DNA of 64,000 nucleotides from Parietichytrium sp. I65-24A (lineage: Eukaryota > Sar > Bigyra > Thraustochytrida > Thraustochytriidae): contig BLSF01000008.1 of assembly GCA_012862575.1 (NCBI GenBank), forward strand, positions 186,001 to 250,000, in the 5' to 3' direction. How positions within the stretch are numbered: the first letter of the stretch is position 1; each line of letters starts with the position of its first letter. The notes under the pieces are model-generated. The model ran no database searches. It was not told where the DNA came from and saw only the letters and a program-made list of their open reading frames with translations. The translations under genes and the position numbers were made by a program. Shown here one piece after another: positions 145-10,643 of this stretch.

Positions 145-264
145 ACAATCGAGCAATAACACCTCTCTTTCTTCGTGAGAAGAGAGTCTAAAAAGAGCAC
201 ACGTTTGTTTTCAAATTAATAAGAGTCAGACAAAAGATATTCACTCATCAGAAAAACAGTTGTG

Positions 265-1709
265 CTACATAGTATTTGAGTAATTTGACCCAGAGCGTCT
301 TCTGGCATCATCAGAATCATAGCTTCCAACGGACGTCGACCGGGCGATCACTCCGTTAACTGGCGACTTCTTGCTCGTCCGGCGAGGCGTGGACAGCTCA
401 ATGTCCCCATCGTCCTGATCAAAACCAATAAAGCTGTCTTCCGAGAGGCGTCTGCTTGGTAAAACCTCGAAGCCAACTTGGGGGCCAGCATTGTTGAGGG
501 TGTGATTCTCTTTCCTGGTGAGCACGTAGAGTCCAGAGAGCGTGATGACTGTACCGACCAGAAACATGTTGATTTGTTTTGCGGAAAGCTCCTCCTATAA
601 AGCCAGTTTTGAAGATGTCAGAACACATCCCAACGTGCAAAAAAAAAAGAAAAGCAGCCATTCTTAAACTCACAAATTCGCCAAAGTAAACCAAACCGCC
701 GATAACACCGCTGATGATCCAATACGATTGGTACACTGGAAGGACGTAAAGTTGATCGTATCGCTTCATGGCACCGTTAAGAAAGCTGATCTGTGTAAGC
801 AAGCAAATCACCATTGCGATGATGATCAAATAGGTATCCAAGTAAGCAAAAACGGCATCGCCGTGAAAGGCGTCCTTTAGCAATTCTACCGTGCTCTTCG
901 CAAACAAAACGGAGTTCCCACCCGTGATTCCCGCGAACCCGCACCAACCGACAAGCCCGAGCAACTTGTAGATGGTCTCGTTCTTTTCTTCGCTCCATTT
1001 GATGAACGAGTAGTGCAGGCCTAGCATTAGCGGCGTTAAAAAGGCATAAATGTACATCCGCGTCTGATGATATAGTTCGCGAAGCACCTCCAGCTTGTAT
1101 TCGTGTTCGTGATGATTTGAATAGATCATGGTGATCCCAGTCCCGAGAAAGATAAGCGCGCAAGCCTGAATGTCATTTTTGTCGTACTTTTCATCTAGCA
1201 GGTACGAAGACATAAATAGGTTCCACACCAGGCTGAGCGCTGCCAACGGGGCAAGCAAACTCTGCGGCGCAAGACCGCTGTTTCCACGCCACAAACACCA
1301 CATTAAAGTTAGTGCATCATCACAATCCCACCTCCGGAATACAACCCCTGGCAAACGAAAAGTAATCCAAACAAGCCACGGAAACCTACAAAGCCAGAAA
1401 ATCAATGATGTTGCCGAGCACCATGCACGAGAAACCGACGACCCACCTGGGCTGCTGCCACGGCTTCAAGTTGGCATTTTCCGTAGCGCACAGGCTCAGC
1501 TTCTGCAATCCCAGGCCCAGGCAGATAAGAAAGGACGCCAGGATCGCCAGCACTACGCCGCAAGTGACAAGGAACGCCTCGCTGAACGACCTGTAGTCCG
1601 TCCACGCCTTCAGCCGCGCCAGGTACGACTCGTCCGACTCGCCCTCTTGACCCATATTTTGCAGCTCGCGGGCCGCAAACTCCCACACCTGCGCCGCCAC
1701 CGCCGCCAT
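265..1709 (-). CDS. NIPA-like magnesium transporter (three exons)
   Basis: Predicted multi-pass membrane protein of the NIPA (DUF803) family, whose characterised members carry Mg2+ across plasma or endosomal membranes. Exons read 1709-1390, 1277-674 and 594-265; introns of 112 bases (GTAGGT...ACAG) and 79 bases (GTGAGT...ATAG) restore one 417-residue frame. Joining exons 1 and 2 rebuilds the family-typical DFLAFGLAPQSLLAPLAAL segment, and joining exons 2 and 3 rebuilds the last helix (MFLVGTVITLSGLYVL). Roughly nine hydrophobic segments are visible, followed by a hydrophilic tail of about 70 residues rich in Ser and Asp. I chose the ATG at 1709 (MAAVAAQ) over an in-frame ATG at 1934, because the extra 75 residues are low-complexity translation of a short tandem repeat. 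Family known; Mg2+ as substrate is inferred. Confidence 0.85.
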
Positions 1710-2383
1710 TGTGTCCTCGCCAAGGTACGCGCAGAAACCCCCCTTTCCCAGTCCTGCCAGTCCTCCCAGTCCTGCCAGTCCTGCTTTCGCACTTGCTGCG
1801 CTTGCTGCGCTTGCCCACTCTCGCTCGACCGCTCGACCGCTCTGCGCGCACCCTTGCCTTCTCCCGCTCAGTGTGGGCCCTAAGGGCGGCCTACTTTCGC
1901 TTACGGGACCCAGGTGTGGGAAGCCGAAACGCACGGCGTACTGCCCGCGGTGGGACGAAAGGGTTATGCGATAGCCTAAAGTGGCCTTACGACAGCGTGT
2001 TCGTTTTGCTGATAGATATGGCTACTGCCTGGAAGGGAGCGCTAGCTTGGAGAGCTTGTACAACTTCGAGATTGACCTGTGAGATTGAAAGATTGAAAGA
2101 TTGGTTGCTTATAATTGACTGTGATTTCAAGATTTGAGAGATTGTTGGTCGATGGTTGGTGTGATCGGAGGTGGTCGGGTCTCCGGGGCGGTTCACGTAC
2201 TGCAAGGCCAGGAATCAGGAGTTGCCGGGCTCGACAGATGTTGAATTCGAGTTTCTTTCAAGTGCTCGTGGCGGTGTTGGTATAAATAATTATTGTGACT
2301 GTTTAGCTTTTAAATTCGGGGTCGCTGGGCTTGACTTGGGTGACGGAATTCGGATACGGTCAAAGCGAGGCGCTTGCTCGCAT
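1710..2383. other. Region between the NIPA-like and LIM genes
   Basis: This 674-base gap holds the 5' flank of the transporter and the 3' flank of the LIM gene, both on the minus strand. Besides the 9-base repeat there is a patch at 2086-2130 built from GATTGAAA-like words. I see no convincing gene, RNA or terminator. Confidence 0.5.
1747..1815. repeat. 9-base tandem repeat in transporter 5' leader
   Basis: About four copies of a 9-base unit (CCAGTCCTG/C on the plus strand) at 1747-1784, followed by two to three copies of CTTGCTGCG to 1815. It lies about 40 bases upstream of the chosen start of the NIPA-like gene and stays in frame with it on the minus strand, so an upstream start would translate it as Ala-Gly-Leu repeats. 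Confidence 0.8.
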
Positions 2384-3985
2384 TCATTCCATTGCGAGTA
2401 GAGGAGGCACGTCATCGTCGCTTTCAGCGTTGATCTCGGAATCTGAGAGGTTTTGAGTCAACACGGTGGGGACACCCGGATGTTCCTTATGGCAAAAGTA
2501 AAGCCGGCATGGATCCAGACACCCCAGCAAGGTGGCGTCTTGAGAAAGCTGGGCAATGAGTTCAAGTCGCTGGATGACGCCCCCGAACGATTGAAACAAG
2601 TGGACAGTCAGCCGCTCGAAGTTCTCCGGAGCCGGTTCCAAAGTCTGAACGAGCGCGATCGACTGCACCCATGTACTCGCGGTCAGCCAGTCGTCGGTCA
2701 ATATTGTGACAGGAGTGTTCTGCGTCGCGATTGGAGTCAGTGTGAAACCGGGGGTGTCTTCATCAGAAAGGAGCGCAACTAGGCTTTCACAAATGTTGAT
2801 GTCCCGCAAGACAAGACCAGCCGAATTGAGCACTTGGTTCTTGTTCTCCCCAAGCGTTAATGTGGGACCACGAAAGTTCAGCTTGATGTATCCTTCAATT
2901 CCGTCAATTAGTGCAGGCCCGTGATAGTGCACGCCAAATACGGGAAGGTATGGGTCCATAGACGCAGGTTCGAGGTCGTCAAACTTTTGATCCCTTATCG
3001 TGGCTGAGATGCTCAGCTCTGAGGCCACGTTAATCTTCCGGTAATCCGAAGATTTAGACATCGTTTCAGGATAAAACGTAAGATGCACGTGAGAATGCTG
3101 CTGCAATTCTGCCTTCATGAGGGCTTCACGATCCTCGGTGTCCAATGCATAAAAGAATGTCTTGGAATTATCACTGTCCTTGTCAGTTCGCAATGCCACC
3201 ACCAAACGGTCTGCGGTGCGCTTCAAGAACACGCGCTGAGACACATGAACTCCTTCAGCCTCCGTTTGCGGGCACACTTTGTGAAACTTTTCCATTCCGT
3301 TTACAATCATGTCCGCGTCTTTAGCAAATGCGAAGCCACAGCGGCCACACACTGGAACATAATCGCCCATTACAAGAACGAGCTTATCTTTTGCGATCTT
3401 GCGTTTGTGCGCAACCTCTTCTGTCAGACAAACCACTCTATGGGACTCTTTTTTCGCCATCCTGGACGTTCCAGCAATAATTTGTGACGCGATGTGGCTA
3501 CCATGCTTGGCGCAAAGAAATTTGTTGGGCTCTACGCGGTACTGAGAGCACTGGAGCATGCTGGGGCCGGATTCGAGCACAGGCTCTTTAAATTCTAGAG
3601 ACACATTGCACATGTTGCATCTGAGACACTCCTTGTGAAACACCTGCCCCTTTGAGTTCTGTGCACGATCATGCATGTAGACGACTTTGTCACACAAGCA
3701 GCACTCCTTGTTCCTCAGCACGGCTTCATTCGAGGACTTGGGCGTCAGAACCTGCGTCATTCTCGCCACGTTGCCGCTCACAGCATTCCGCGCCGGCGAC
3801 TGGCTTCTCACAGGGCTCTTCTGCGCTGGAGTGTCCTCCGCCAGCTCCTTTTCCCACCCGAGCGTGGAAACCTTACCTATCTTCACTGCCGGCCTGTCGA
3901 GCGCCTCAAACTTGGCCACATCATTGTCTCTTGCCACCTTGTCTTCCCCGCGCTCCCCGCAGCAGAGCGACATTTCGGAGCCCAT
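2384..3985 (-). CDS. LIM zinc-finger protein with predicted acylated N-terminus
   Basis: A 533-residue protein with one clear LIM finger: C95-x2-C98-x18-H117-x2-C120-x2-C123-x2-C126, then C158-x2-H161 after an unusually long loop. A second C-x2-C...H-x2-C set follows around residues 230-255 and looks like half a LIM domain. The remaining 270 residues are mixed alpha/beta with no family I recognise; the last ones are acidic. LIM domains bind proteins, often in cytoskeletal or signalling complexes. I chose the ATG at 3985 (context ACAATGG, A at -3 and G at +4) over an in-frame ATG at 4108, because the extra residues are a Cys-Ala-Asp repeat. The chosen start gives MGSEMSLCC, matching an N-myristoylation (Gly2, Ser6) plus palmitoylation (Cys8/9) pattern. 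Single exon. Partners unknown. Confidence 0.75.
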   Translation of the reverse strand: MGSEMSLCCGERGEDKVARDNDVAKFEALDRPAVKIGKVSTLGWEKELAEDTPAQKSPVRSQSPARNAVSGNVARMTQVLTPKSSNEAVLRNKECCLCDKVVYMHDRAQNSKGQVFHKECLRCNMCNVSLEFKEPVLESGPSMLQCSQYRVEPNKFLCAKHGSHIASQIIAGTSRMAKKESHRVVCLTEEVAHKRKIAKDKLVLVMGDYVPVCGRCGFAFAKDADMIVNGMEKFHKVCPQTEAEGVHVSQRVFLKRTADRLVVALRTDKDSDNSKTFFYALDTEDREALMKAELQQHSHVHLTFYPETMSKSSDYRKINVASELSISATIRDQKFDDLEPASMDPYLPVFGVHYHGPALIDGIEGYIKLNFRGPTLTLGENKNQVLNSAGLVLRDINICESLVALLSDEDTPGFTLTPIATQNTPVTILTDDWLTASTWVQSIALVQTLEPAPENFERLTVHLFQSFGGVIQRLELIAQLSQDATLLGCLDPCRLYFCHKEHPGVPTVLTQNLSDSEINAESDDDVPPLLAME

Positions 3986-5667: not shown

Positions 5668-8600
5668 ATGAAGGGCAGGCACCACGGGCACGGTGGAAAT
5701 GGCGGTTTTAGGGTGAGTTTGGGAGATTTGGGTTGTGATCCTGTGCAAAGAAGGGGCGCTGGGTACTAACGGGAAAAGATTGGAAACCACAGGTGAGATA
5801 CTATCACATTTTCGTGGTGACGGTGACGCTCTTCTGGCTGTTCCTGATCAAGCAAATCGGGTCTGTGCAGGTGTTCGATCGCGTATTTGTGTTTGGGGAC
5901 TTGAAGGATGGCGGCTCGAGCGGATCTCTTCGCGCGGCGGATGATGTCCAGGTCTTCACTGCGGTCGGCCACGCGAACTGTAAATATACAGCTTTGGCAA
6001 ATCAAGTACTGGACAAGCTAAAGGAGGAAGACCCAAAGTCCGTGTTCGTGTACACGTGGACTGCTCCATCCAGGAAGCAATTCGATAGATGGCTCGAGAC
6101 TCGCAAGCAGTCTGGACAAGTTCCCAAAGATCACAAAACTGCGCCTGTGATCTTTAATCGAATGGAGCAGCAGCGCGTGTTCCTCGGCGGAGTTGGAGAG
6201 CTGTTGGAGTTTGCGAGCGAGCGGTTCCCAAGAGTCGATCTATCACAAGAGAAGCTGCGCAAGCAAGAAATTGACGAGCTCTCTCACGACGATTTTCTCG
6301 AGCATCACGGCTCGGGTAAGGATTTCTCGACTCGACCGAGCTCGGGCAAAGCCCTCATATTAAGCCCATCTGATGAAATCTCAGCCTCCAGCGACGAGAG
6401 GTTGGACTCGGCTGAGACTGAGACTGTGACTGGCCGTCTCAGGACGCCAGAGACCACGGTGTTTCCTGTCAGCCAACAGAGCCCCGTTATACGCTCTTTC
6501 ATGACTGACCCTCTGAATCGCTTGGTACCTCAAGTTACATTCAAGAAGAACAGGGTTTTCACGACATATCGCCTGGCGGAGGGGCGAATCGTCACCAACT
6601 ACAAGCCAATGATGGCCGCACTCAAGGGAAAGGGATGGAGCTACATGCAATCCGCTCCACTGCTGTCTGGGTTTATTCTCGTGCAGGACCAGACTTCGGC
6701 GGCCCATGTTTTGAAAAAGTACAGGAAACCAATCATTAACAATATTGGATACGGCGGTCAGAGTTGCTTTGGAGGCACCAAGGGAACTCAGCTCAAGTGC
6801 CGCTCTGAATTTGCCCTCAAAAGCGGGTGCAATTACGACTCTCTTGGAATTCAACCCCCACAATATCGGCTGTGGATTTTGGAGGAGTGCAGGCGATTCT
6901 TTGATGTCGCGTGCAAAAACGAGCCGAACCGTATGTGGATGGAGAAGCCGAGCGGAGGGCAGCATGGCGTAGGAATGACCGTGCGAAATGGTTGTGAATC
7001 GGTCAGGCAAATTCATAACAGCTGCGCCGCCGAGGCAGCAAAGAAGAAGTTCATTATGATGCCGTACTTGACCCCGGCCCTTATGGGCGGTCACAAGTTT
7101 GACGTCCGCTCTTTTCTCCTGGTGGCAAGCCTGGACCCACAGCTTGCTTTTTACCACGACGGATTTGCTCGCAAGGCAAACAGCGCGTACACCTCCGACT
7201 TGTCAGATCGAAATGCACACATTACCAACGCTGTGTCTCAGAAGGATGAAGACCATTTCTACAGCTTTGTGAGCTTGCAAGACATCTTGCACCGTGAGTC
7301 AGGATTCCCAGCCGACTTCATGACGACTGTATTCCGCGCACACGCCATCAAAGTTCAAAATTATGTCTTTCAGACATCTCGGCAGTTCTTCGGTCGAAGA
7401 AAGGGTCTCTACCAAATCTTTGCTCTAGACTGGATCATCGATTCCGATGGTGGTATTCACATGCTTGAAGCAAACTCTAACCCGCTTGTCACTGTCTTCA
7501 AGGACTTGCAGGAGGAGTTTACCGAGACCTGGGACGGCATGACCGACCTAGTAATAAAGGTCCATTCTGAGCCCGAAAGTCTCTTCTCCTCGGAGTACCC
7601 TAAACTGACCGCCATGGACCCAAATCGTTACCAGTACAGAGGCTGGCATTTGATCTTCAATGAGCTCGAAGAGAAGGAGTCCGGAATCCCCTTTAAGCCG
7701 TGCAGTGCTGGGGTGAGCCAGTACAGTATCAGCAAGACTCTTGGCATCAACACCAAGCCCGACTCCGTTGCTGCTCTCCAGAGCTCTCCTGTGGCGAAGA
7801 CTTTTAAGCAAGAAGAGACTCAGCAAGGCACTGCTGTGACTGAAAGGGTCTCGAGCAACGTCGTGGAAGAAGATGACCTGTCTTTTGAGACGGAGCCTGA
7901 AACCGAAACCTCGGCTGTTACGGTTTCCTCTGGCGGTGCAGACATGGATGAGACGCCTTACAAGATTTCCCAGGCCGAAATCCACGAGGCAGTAAAGTTT
8001 GCGGCGAAGAGGCAGTGTGTTAGCCTTGATCCGTTTGCTGCGTTTGACGACTGCCAGTACGTCAACCGCGGCCTTGGCGAGCAGGATCGTACAATCCGTT
8101 GCCGCTTCACGACGGATGGGTACCTGTACATTATCGAGCCCACCGACGAGAAACTCGTTGCGCAGCGACGGCCTCTCGAGGAGCTGTCCTCGCCTGGATG
8201 CTTTCCGATGATGTTGGTGACTGCAGGAGTGCACGGCAATGAGCAAGCAGGAATCGTTGCGGCTCGACACATGCGCAAAACGTGGTCTTTTAAGAAGGCA
8301 AGACTGGTTATAGTCGAGCGACTAAATCCTCGCGGGGATGAGAAACGAGCCCGCTACATTCCAAAGATGTCCAAGCAAGAGCAAGATCTGAATCGCAATT
8401 TTCCCAAGTCAGGCTTGGTCGGCGATCTTGCGAAAGAAATCTGGAAGATGGTAGCCAAGATTAAGCCTCACGTGTTTATCGACATGCATGAAGGCTGGGG
8501 CTTTTACAACCGCTTACGAGCTAATTACCAGAAGGGAGGCCAATTGGTCGGAAACCCCAAGTTCAGCAAAGGAAGCTCCGTGATTTCCTCTGAGTCGGCT

Positions 8601-9398
8601 GTTCCGATTGCCAAGTACATGATCAATAGGGTCAATGATCTCACCGTGAAGGAACATGCGAAAGACTTTCTGTCGGTCGTTCCACCAATAGAGACTGGAT
8701 TGGCCAACATGATCATGCGTGAGTTTGACCCACTAACGTTTGTCATCGAGACTACTTCAGGCAACCAGCCTCTGTGGTTCCGCGCGAAGCAGCAGCTCAT
8801 TCTAGTGAGCACTTGCTTTGTGATCCTCGGTCTCCTGCCTGTGGACTTTGATGGTCGCCAGGGATTTGACAACTCCATGGCCTGTGTCGCCGGAATGAGC
8901 AGCTGCAAGTTGCAGCATCCTGGGGACGATCTTCTCACTTTCCGCAACTCTCAGCCGCTCGAGCAGCCAAGGCCAGAATCCTCCGTGCGTGCAGTCATCG
9001 ACGATGAGGACGATGATCTGACCCCAAGCTCAGACCTCGAAGTCACCGAGACCCGCGAAGAAGATTTATCATCAGAGACGGAGGAAGACGAAGAGATCAA
9101 TGCCGCTGGCGACGCATTGGAGCAGCCAGCTGCTGAGCAAGAAAATGACCCGAACAACTTTAACCAGAATGGCGCAGATGGAGAAGCTGAGGAGGAGGCA
9201 GCTGGCGAAGACGAGGAAGCCGCGGCCGAGTTCCAATCTCGCTCTCAAGTCGCCGAGGAAGACGCAGAGCAAGCTGATGCCGAGCTTGAGACCGAAGTCG
9301 CCGAAGCAGAAGCAGAAGCAGAAGCTGCTGCCGATGCTGATGCTGATGCTGATGCCGACGCCGAATTCGAGGAGTTCGAAGAGGGCGGCGACAGGTAA
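5668..9398 (+). CDS. Membrane-anchored glutaredoxin-like / TTL ligase / M14 peptidase fusion
   Basis: Exons 5668-5712 and 5793-9398; the 80-base intron has GTGAGT, a perfect TACTAAC branch sequence (5764-5770) and CACAG. Product 1216 residues. Residues 1-45 have basic residues followed by a long hydrophobic stretch (YYHIFVVTVTLFWLFLI), a signal anchor or signal peptide. Residues about 65-160 resemble glutaredoxin: cis-Pro (TAP) and GGVGEL motifs, with HANC where CPYC is expected. Residues about 265-600 are a tubulin-tyrosine-ligase-type ATP-grasp domain: KPSGGQHGVGM, GHKFDVRSF, HITN, and the D...E..N metal/ATP residues in FALDWIID...HMLEANSNP. Residues about 815-1050 are an M14/AstE-aspartoacylase-type metallopeptidase: GVHGNEQAG (zinc His and Glu), DLNRNFP, DMHEG (zinc His), FVIETTSG (likely catalytic Glu). 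The tail is Glu/Asp/Ala-rich. TTL enzymes ligate amino acids to peptides and M14 enzymes remove them. Domain calls are strong; substrate and compartment are unknown. Confidence 0.85.
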
Positions 9399-10068
9399 AT
9401 GAAACTGAAAGAAAAAAAAAGATAAACCTTTTGTGATCCGTACATTCCATCTTCTCACGCCGTTTCTTCGTTCTTCCATTTCCACTCCCCGTGAGGTTTA
9501 GACGCTGCGTCGACTTTCTTACTTGGTTCTTCGCGTTGTGTCGTTCATGTTCTGGTTCTTCCACACCATCTTCCCAGTTTGCTGGATCCTGAGGAAGCTT
9601 CGTTTCTGTTCTCCCCGGGGGTGGTAGGCTCTGTGTAACGGAGCTTACACCCATTCGTAAAAATCCATGATTATCCACTTGATCCATGTAGCCAATGGTC
9701 TAGAATGTGCTAGAGGACGGAGGAACGAGCTCGTTGTTCTTTATTAGGCGCGCATAGCATACGTTTAAGCAAACGTTCCCTTTGAAGTCTTATGTATTTA
9801 GTAGCATGTCGTAGCATTTTAGCGAAGTGGCAACGTTAGCTTTGTGGCCCAGTAATGAATGAGTCCTGTGAGGCAGTGGCCATCGATTATAGTACCCAGT
9901 AAATAGCCTTGTGTAGTCTAACATTCACAGTCCAACGAGAGTGCGTAAGCACTTCTCCGACAAATGCTAACACCATTTTATCTAAGCATCTCATTAACTA
10001 CTTCTAAGGCATCCCGCCTAAGACTCGTTAATGTGCTAATAACCGCCCCAGATCCCCACTCACCCTCC

Positions 10069-10099
<31 letters not shown>

Positions 10100-10121
10100 T
10101 CGTTTTCTCTCTCTCTCTCTT
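10069..10121. repeat. CTTT array followed by CT run
   Basis: About eight CTTT units (10069-10100), a short TTTTC break and a CT dinucleotide run (10107-10121). The opposite-sense GA run at 10374-10401 could pair with the CT run or form a purine/pyrimidine triplex; this is inference. Confidence 0.85.
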
Positions 10122-10370
10122 CCTGATTCGTTCTTTCCTTCTTTCTTTGCTTCCTCCTCACACTCACTCCCTCCTTCCCTCCTTCCCTCCCTCTCCCACC
10201 AATTTTCCGCTTATTAAACTCATCTACCCCGAACGCTACAAATGGCAAATTGCTACTGCCGCTGCTAGCTGGATGAGGGGTGTTACTAGTGGTCCTCCTG
10301 AACCTCGCATTCCTCTCCTTCCTCCCATTCCTTTCTCCCATTCCTCCCAACAGACCCACAGAGACAGAGG

Positions 10371-10373
<3 letters not shown>

Positions 10374-10405
<32 letters not shown>

Positions 10406-10643
10406 GCGGCATACTCACGCGGACGGCGAAGGGTGCGCGCACGTAGTCGGCGGAGGATCGTTCGTTTGTGTCCGCCTGTCTCTCTCACGACTTGGTGACC
10501 TGACCTGACCTGACCTGACTGACCTGGTAGCCTAGTAGCCTAGTGTTGAAAACGCAGAGGGTACTGAGTAGCGTGGCTGCGTTGTGTTGTGTTTGTGATT
10601 GTGCGTGGAGATCAGCAAAGTAGGAGAGAGAGAGAGAGAGAGG
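10374..10643. repeat. GA runs and TGACC array before the coiled-coil gene
   Basis: GA dinucleotide run at 10374-10401, a pentanucleotide TGACC array at 10496-10526 with a CCTAGTAG duplication after it, and a second GA run at 10624-10643 that ends 17 bases before the ATG at 10660. Confidence 0.8.

Follow-up and report, generated by a model that had tools for sequence, protein, structure and literature searches.

A predicted membrane-anchored fusion of a TTL-type ligase and an M14-type metallopeptidase in the thraustochytrid Parietichytrium sp. I65-24A

Introduction

To our knowledge, the tubulin tyrosine ligase (TTL) family is known almost exclusively for modifying tubulin in the cytosol, and the CCP enzymes are cytosolic tubulin deglutamylases of the M14 type. 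Here, we analyze a gene of Parietichytrium sp. I65-24A that encodes a TTL-type and an M14-type domain in a single predicted protein. It lies on the forward strand at positions 5668-9398 of a 64,000-nucleotide stretch of contig BLSF01000008.1 (positions 186,001 to 250,000; assembly GCA_012862575.1), which we call the window. Three further systems are relevant for comparison. The substrates of AstE/AspA-type enzymes are N-acyl amino acids. The Golgi kinase Fam20C is a lumenal modifier that uses ATP and transfers phosphate. The third is Csd4 of Helicobacter pylori (entry 4q6m), for which the accessible part of the original report describes the metal ligands Gln46, Glu49 and His128, the key arginines Arg86 and Arg94, and the base Glu222 (PMC4220969).

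The protein shares with the TTL/TTLL family (PF03133; TTL 3tig, TTLL7 4ylr, 5vlq) the ATP-grasp core and the residues K, D-x-R, R, D and E-x-N, and differs from that family in its predicted anchor, in flanks that carry four invariant cysteines, and in its fusion to a metallopeptidase. The likeness of the other half to the CCP enzymes lies in the M14-type metallopeptidase itself and in the idea of a writer and an eraser; unlike CCP-type enzymes, however, it falls outside the 14 matches of PF00246 in the genome. With AstE/AspA proteins (succinylglutamate desuccinylase/aspartoacylase; PF24827, 2qj8) it has the HGNE and DLNR motifs in common and a Pfam score above the cut-off, but this match is confined to the first part of the M14 domain, and the NCBIfam aspartoacylase model reaches 23 bits against a cut-off of 180. 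Like Fam20C, the protein would use ATP within the secretory pathway; unlike Fam20C, which has a kinase fold and transfers phosphate, it would transfer amino acids.

We favor, with about even confidence, the reading that the gene encodes a type II enzyme of the secretory pathway, whose TTL half would ligate amino acids to acceptors in the lumen or at the surface and whose M14 half would trim them. Should this anchored, cysteine-conserving branch of TTLs indeed work in the secretory pathway, secreted or surface proteins would carry a glutamylation-type modification, and ATP would be consumed in the lumen. Among the matches listed from the open-licence full-text literature, a scope mostly outside subscription papers and preprints and therefore weak evidence, we recognized no lumenal TTL and no TTL-M14 fusion. 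Tyrosine ligase, ATP-grasp, carboxypeptidase and glutamylation are not treated in the accessible part of PMC12221091, and a table row in the accessible part of PMC7217449 lists PF03133 among the Pfam domains that are over- or under-represented in obligate biotrophs.

A single reading frame joins the two domains

As far as the DNA itself can tell, the fused ligase and peptidase gene is confirmed as real, since the domains, their order and their residues are found in one frame. The first-pass annotation, which had placed a TTL-type and an M14-type domain in this order on one polypeptide of 1216 residues, is thereby borne out, with the Pfam models TTL and AstE_AspA_cat both above their cut-offs. 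The plus-strand frame at 5793-9395 is unbroken over 1201 codons and covers both enzyme domains in a single exon. The full-length protein is obtained by joining the ATG at 5668 and its 15 codons, across a predicted intron, to this long exon. The gene model and the two enzyme domains are as follows:

5668..5712, plus strand: exon 1, 15 codons, encoding the short basic N-terminus MKGRHHGHGGNGGFR (from translation and splice pattern)
5713..5792, plus strand: predicted intron of 80 bases with a GTGAGT donor, a TACTAAC branch site and a CACAG acceptor (from the sequence)
5793..9398, plus strand: exon 2, residues 16-1216 and the stop codon (from the reading frame)
6549..7712, plus strand: ATP-grasp domain of the TTL type together with its family-specific flanks (residues 268-655)
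7959..8849, plus strand: M14-type metallopeptidase domain, residues 738-1034 (from profile matches and family alignment)

The stop-free run amounts to 1219 codons, which has a probability of about 4e-26 when stops are assumed to occur at 3 in 64, and the GC content at third codon positions (GC3) stays between 0.51 and 0.66 along the entire frame. An annotation artefact is disfavored by this single open frame with its even GC3. Downstream of the gene, simple repeats (TTTC/CTCT and GAGA runs) occupy 10060-10420 of the window.

The TTL half

Pfam assigns residues 374-583 to TTL (PF03133) with an E-value of 2.1e-22 and 80.2 bits against a cut-off of 20.1; ATPgrasp_YheCD also matches the protein, below its Pfam cut-off. 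We checked seven positions of the family, K400, D452, R454, R475, D561, E574 and N576, and found every residue present. The K, D-x-R, R, D and E-x-N residues of TTL are those that handle ATP and metal, and the earlier impression that the catalytic residues are apparently intact holds for this half as well as for the M14 half, where a further seven were checked (below). In the proposed mechanism, the TTL half would link an amino acid through an amide bond to a carboxylate of the acceptor, at the expense of ATP. The likely acceptor would be a lumenal or surface protein with an acidic stretch; the enzyme's own acidic tail, or the tails of its paralogues, may serve as such.

Among solved structures, the best match of the family profile is 5vlq, which we take to be the glycylase TTLL3, while the protein on its own best matches TTL itself (3tig). 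Both matches speak for a different reading, in which a cytosol-facing or cilium-associated TTLL, combined with a peptidase resembling a deglutamylase, edits tubulin, the hydrophobic segment tethering it to a membrane near microtubules with its N-terminus outside and the enzymes in the cytosol. The ciliary genes for a radial spokehead protein and Dpy-30 in the same window point in the same direction. We nevertheless consider this reading unlikely, based on the features of the M14 half, the anchor and the relatives of the gene that are described below.

The M14 half

The Pfam model AstE_AspA_cat (PF24827) matches residues 820-891 with an E-value of 1.6e-10 and 41.3 bits against a cut-off of 25, while Peptidase_M99 remains below its cut-off (16.1 against 27). 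All seven residues that we checked, H829, E832, R869, N882, R883, H914 and E1001, are present, and they are invariant across the three aligned sequences, namely the fusion protein, L009 and L065. L009 is a stand-alone M14 relative from the same genome that carries a predicted anchor and is 38% identical to the M14 half. L065, from Luteolibacter pohnpeiensis, was the one M14 relative among 53 pattern matches in a scan of bacterial contigs; by eye, it starts like a signal peptide, and a BPL_N domain follows. In the phylum of Luteolibacter, 5 of 288 genomes match at an E-value of 1e-10, including the genome from which L065 came. Each half thus also occurs as a protein of its own, and the gene brings the two together. 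Two candidate assignments were rejected. A classical M14 carboxypeptidase (PF00246) is not indicated, as the gene is not among the PF00246 matches of the genome and gives none at E-values up to 1. A viral origin found no support, as no relative turned up in viral contigs in five scans for short conserved words, two with single domains of the protein and three with alignments as queries; distant relatives may escape such scans.

A profile of the three M14 sequences matches eight distinct solved sequences at E-values of at most 0.01, among them Csd4 and AstE/AspA proteins. The Csd4 entries 4q6m (E 3.4e-7), 4wck (E 1.9e-7) and 4wcm (E 8e-9) are matched over the first part of the domain; we take 4wck and 4wcm to be the same protein as 4q6m. 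The alignment to Csd4 / Peptidase_M99 takes in the HxxE motif, the arginine, the NR pair and the distal histidine, and by our reading of it the M14 residues would correspond to the metal-ligand and arginine positions of Csd4. It extends to the distal histidine and stops short of Glu222, so that E1001 as the counterpart of this base comes from the family alignment alone. Where Csd4 has QxxE with Gln46, the fusion protein has HxxE with His829, although 4wcm itself reads HxxE in the profile alignment. Other differences are that the M14 half is eukaryotic and fused to a TTL domain, and that the barrel and Ig-like domains given for Csd4 in the accessible part of its report are without a Pfam counterpart in the protein (PMC4220969). 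The M14 half could act as a zinc carboxypeptidase from the AstE/AspA-Csd4 branch, removing or trimming the added residues or a neighboring C-terminus in cooperation with the TTL half. If so, the addition and the removal of residues could both be assayed on one ectodomain. Matches to secreted Csd4 and to AstE/AspA, together with the position outside the PF00246 matches, speak against a tubulin editor.

Other proteins of the genome have an M14 domain behind a predicted membrane segment. L053, L056 and L057 are Peptidase_M14 proteins with an N-terminal hydrophobic segment, with long acidic stretches in L053 and L057, and L057 is, by eye, without the usual HxxE histidine. L059 (G000:C81:36795-37529 and around; 148-2775, minus strand) has a predicted anchor and joins Peptidase_M14 (E 3e-26) to AIG2_2 (E 4e-11), with a match to GGACT (gamma-glutamyl cyclotransferase) below the cut-off. 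Its distal metal histidine reads Q by eye, and its peptidase half may be inactive. Elsewhere in the genome, AIG2_2 is found in two other places, in short frames.

The predicted anchor and the accessory regions

Outside the two enzyme domains, four further regions can be delimited:

5793..5867, plus strand: predicted signal anchor, approximately residues 16-40, mean hydropathy up to 1.84
5919..6260, plus strand: glutaredoxin-like domain, residues 58-171 (from the MDH1B match and the element order of a low-confidence model)
7713..7958, plus strand: in-frame, stop-free linker that separates TTL from M14 (residues 656-737), of low complexity by eye
8865..9395, plus strand: acidic C-terminal tail, residues 1040-1216, 34% D+E

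The signal anchor that had been predicted at first sight is recovered by hydropathy, the measure on which all anchor calls in the protein and its paralogues depend. Besides the N-terminal span, a second hydrophobic stretch at residues 1014-1036 falls within the M14 domain. In both sequence and hydropathy, basic residues precede the single predicted N-terminal span, an arrangement that favors a cytosolic N-terminus and so counts against tubulin editing. The topology that we propose would place the short basic N-terminus in the cytosol, followed by one membrane span, with everything else in the lumen.

The evidence on the glutaredoxin-like domain of the first-pass annotation is mixed. Its sequence matches the N-terminal part of the putative malate dehydrogenase 1B (MDH1B; 9d2f) at an E-value of 0.0037, and a single-sequence AlphaFold2 model shows the strand and helix order of a thioredoxin fold at low confidence (predicted local distance difference test, pLDDT, 51), while a Pfam search gave no match for it. 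Foldseek searches with this low-confidence model returned mostly thioredoxins, the best at an E-value of 1.5e-3 and none at 0.001 or below. In the rest of the genome, the domain gave two weak matches (E 0.034 and 0.036). The resemblance to MDH1B, as well as an axonemal chain (8j07_S) among the fold matches, again fits an enzyme that edits tubulin. In the secretory-pathway reading, this thioredoxin-fold-like domain with its lone cysteine, C78 in CKYT, would probably serve in binding or disulfide chemistry.

The length and apparent low complexity of the linker also allow for its proteolysis after synthesis, which would part the two halves and make the fusion an arrangement for delivery only; we regard this as highly improbable. 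The final 177 residues form the acidic tail.

Anchored paralogues in the same genome

We searched the genome (42.5 Mb in 172 contigs) for relatives of the TTL half. The fusion protein as a query gave 37 matches, and PF03133 gave 49, which by position correspond to 41 genes; adding L017 brings the number of TTL genes to 42, a lower bound. Of these, 33 were examined, the other nine lying on contigs C17, C11, C120, C4, C13 (near 362k), C25, C20 (near 550k), C45 and C5 (near 280k). With a best 19-residue hydropathy mean of at least 1.6 as the cut-off for an anchor, 18 of the 33 qualify: 11 related genes that form what we call the window group, and seven others. In each of the 11 genes of the window group, a hydrophobic segment precedes the domain, with a best mean of at least 1.76. 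None of 14 cytosolic-type genes reaches 1.6 (highest 1.51), where "cytosolic-type" means that no hydrophobic segment was seen, upstream exons could be missed in any of them, and three of the frames (L027, L028 and L052) are 5'-truncated.

Phylogenetic analysis separates the window group, represented by 10 of its 11 genes (L008 is absent), from the other TTLs at 100/99 (Shimodaira-Hasegawa-like approximate likelihood ratio test/ultrafast bootstrap). Outside it stand eight further anchored TTLs, L031, L032, L033, L035, L039, L043, L044 and L049, the number of which is descriptive, as they were chosen by the hydrophobic segment itself. Seven of them reach the cut-off, and L043 (1.53) was kept on account of its position within their clade in the tree. 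Six of the eight form one clade (100/100) and two another (97.5/99), apart from the window group. A putative PAN-like cysteine stretch in L044 and L057 gave no Pfam match at an E-value of 0.01 and was not used.

Loss of catalytic residues in relatives had been set beforehand as a test of the first-pass annotation, and the outcome differs by half. The M14 residues are kept in all three sequences, while the seven TTL residues are kept in 9 of the 12 domains of the window group, some being lost in L015B, L016B and L017; therefore, some members of the group are probably non-catalytic. L015 (C93) and L016 (C13) have tandem TTL domains in one anchored protein, and it is their second copies that are without some catalytic residues, as if these had been turned into a binding or regulatory module.

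The same two genes bear on another possibility, namely that the enzyme is lumenal and that each half has a substrate of its own or works on small molecules, such as N-acyl amino acids or amino-acid-substituted polysaccharides, with the fusion serving co-localization only. ATPgrasp_YheCD exceeds its cut-off of 26.8 in L015 (32.5) and L016 (45.8), five anchored TTLs match an ATP-grasp domain associated with sugar transfer, below its cut-off, and the AstE/AspA-type family names point to N-acyl amino acids. In all of these TTLs, however, the TTL match is far stronger, and both halves have relatives in the Protein Data Bank that act on proteins or peptides (TTL/TTLL and Csd4), leaving separate substrates, in our estimation, a rather doubtful explanation.

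Cysteines, sequons and acidic stretches

We compared the window group with the other TTLs in its cysteines, N-glycosylation sequons and acidic stretches. Four cysteines, C361, C381, C426 and C652 in the numbering of the fusion protein, are invariant in all 12 domains of the window group, and the profile alignment has the same four in 14 of the 14 rows that cover them. Cytosolic-type rows cover two of these four columns, with a cysteine in 1 of 3 and 2 of 13 rows, respectively. An additional pair, C340 and C351, occurs in 5 of the 12 domains.

Sequons number 13 in the window group, compared to 36.6 expected, i.e., about a third, and none of 1,000 shuffles was as low; these counts refer to the 11 genes after the anchor (for L008 the second frame only, for L012 two joined pieces), those of the other groups to whole stop-to-stop frames. 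Cytosolic-type genes have 58 sequons against 49.4 expected from shuffling, and five anchored M14 proteins have 13 against 21.8, with 19 of 1,000 shuffles as low. The depletion may be interpreted as avoidance of glycosylation. When the most acidic 60 consecutive residues of each protein are taken, the median D+E fraction is 0.40 for the window group and 0.43 for the five anchored M14 proteins. It is 0.27 for the eight other anchored TTLs and 0.25 for the cytosolic-type genes, individual members of which go up to 0.52.

The cysteine conservation and sequon depletion of the window group stand against a tubulin editor, and we judge tubulin an unlikely substrate. A lumenal pathway appears likelier than a tubulin-editing switch because paralogues of both halves carry predicted anchors. 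The lumenal peptide-modifying enzyme that the first reading of the locus had suggested is thus supported indirectly, through these anchored paralogues and the conserved cysteines, its localization and activity being predictions.

Several observations weigh against the secretory-pathway reading. The anchor of the fusion protein was called from hydropathy alone, and the count of four shared cysteines depends on domain boundaries set at the last of them and on a profile from the same family. The eight other anchored TTLs do not clearly show the sequon depletion that a general lumenal effect would predict (24 against 28.0), and the counts in the window group come from related genes and are not eleven independent observations. 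The fusion protein itself has no sequon, against 5.4 expected, and its native glycosylation is therefore uninformative on lumenal exposure. For the M14 half, the Pfam match spans just the first part of the domain, and the AlphaFold2 model, built from two sequences, has a pLDDT of 38. Finally, L009 stays below the AstE_AspA_cat cut-off (21.2 against 25) and is just above that of M99 (28 against 27).

A possible secretory amino-acid tailing system

Beyond the single gene, we tentatively suggest, with less than even confidence, that the genome may encode a dedicated secretory system for amino-acid tailing. In such a system, at least 18 anchored TTL-type ligases and several anchored carboxypeptidase-type proteins would add amino-acid side chains to lumenal and surface proteins and trim them; in the fusion protein, writer and eraser would share one chain. 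If true, this would be a lumenal counterpart of the glutamylation or glycylation of tubulin.

Apart from these genes, G000:C66:8562-22499 contains an open frame of 5583 residues with four matches to the same segment of PfaA, presumably the ketosynthase region, while the PfaA omega-3 synthase model stays below its cut-off. This frame probably encodes a large modular polyketide synthase.

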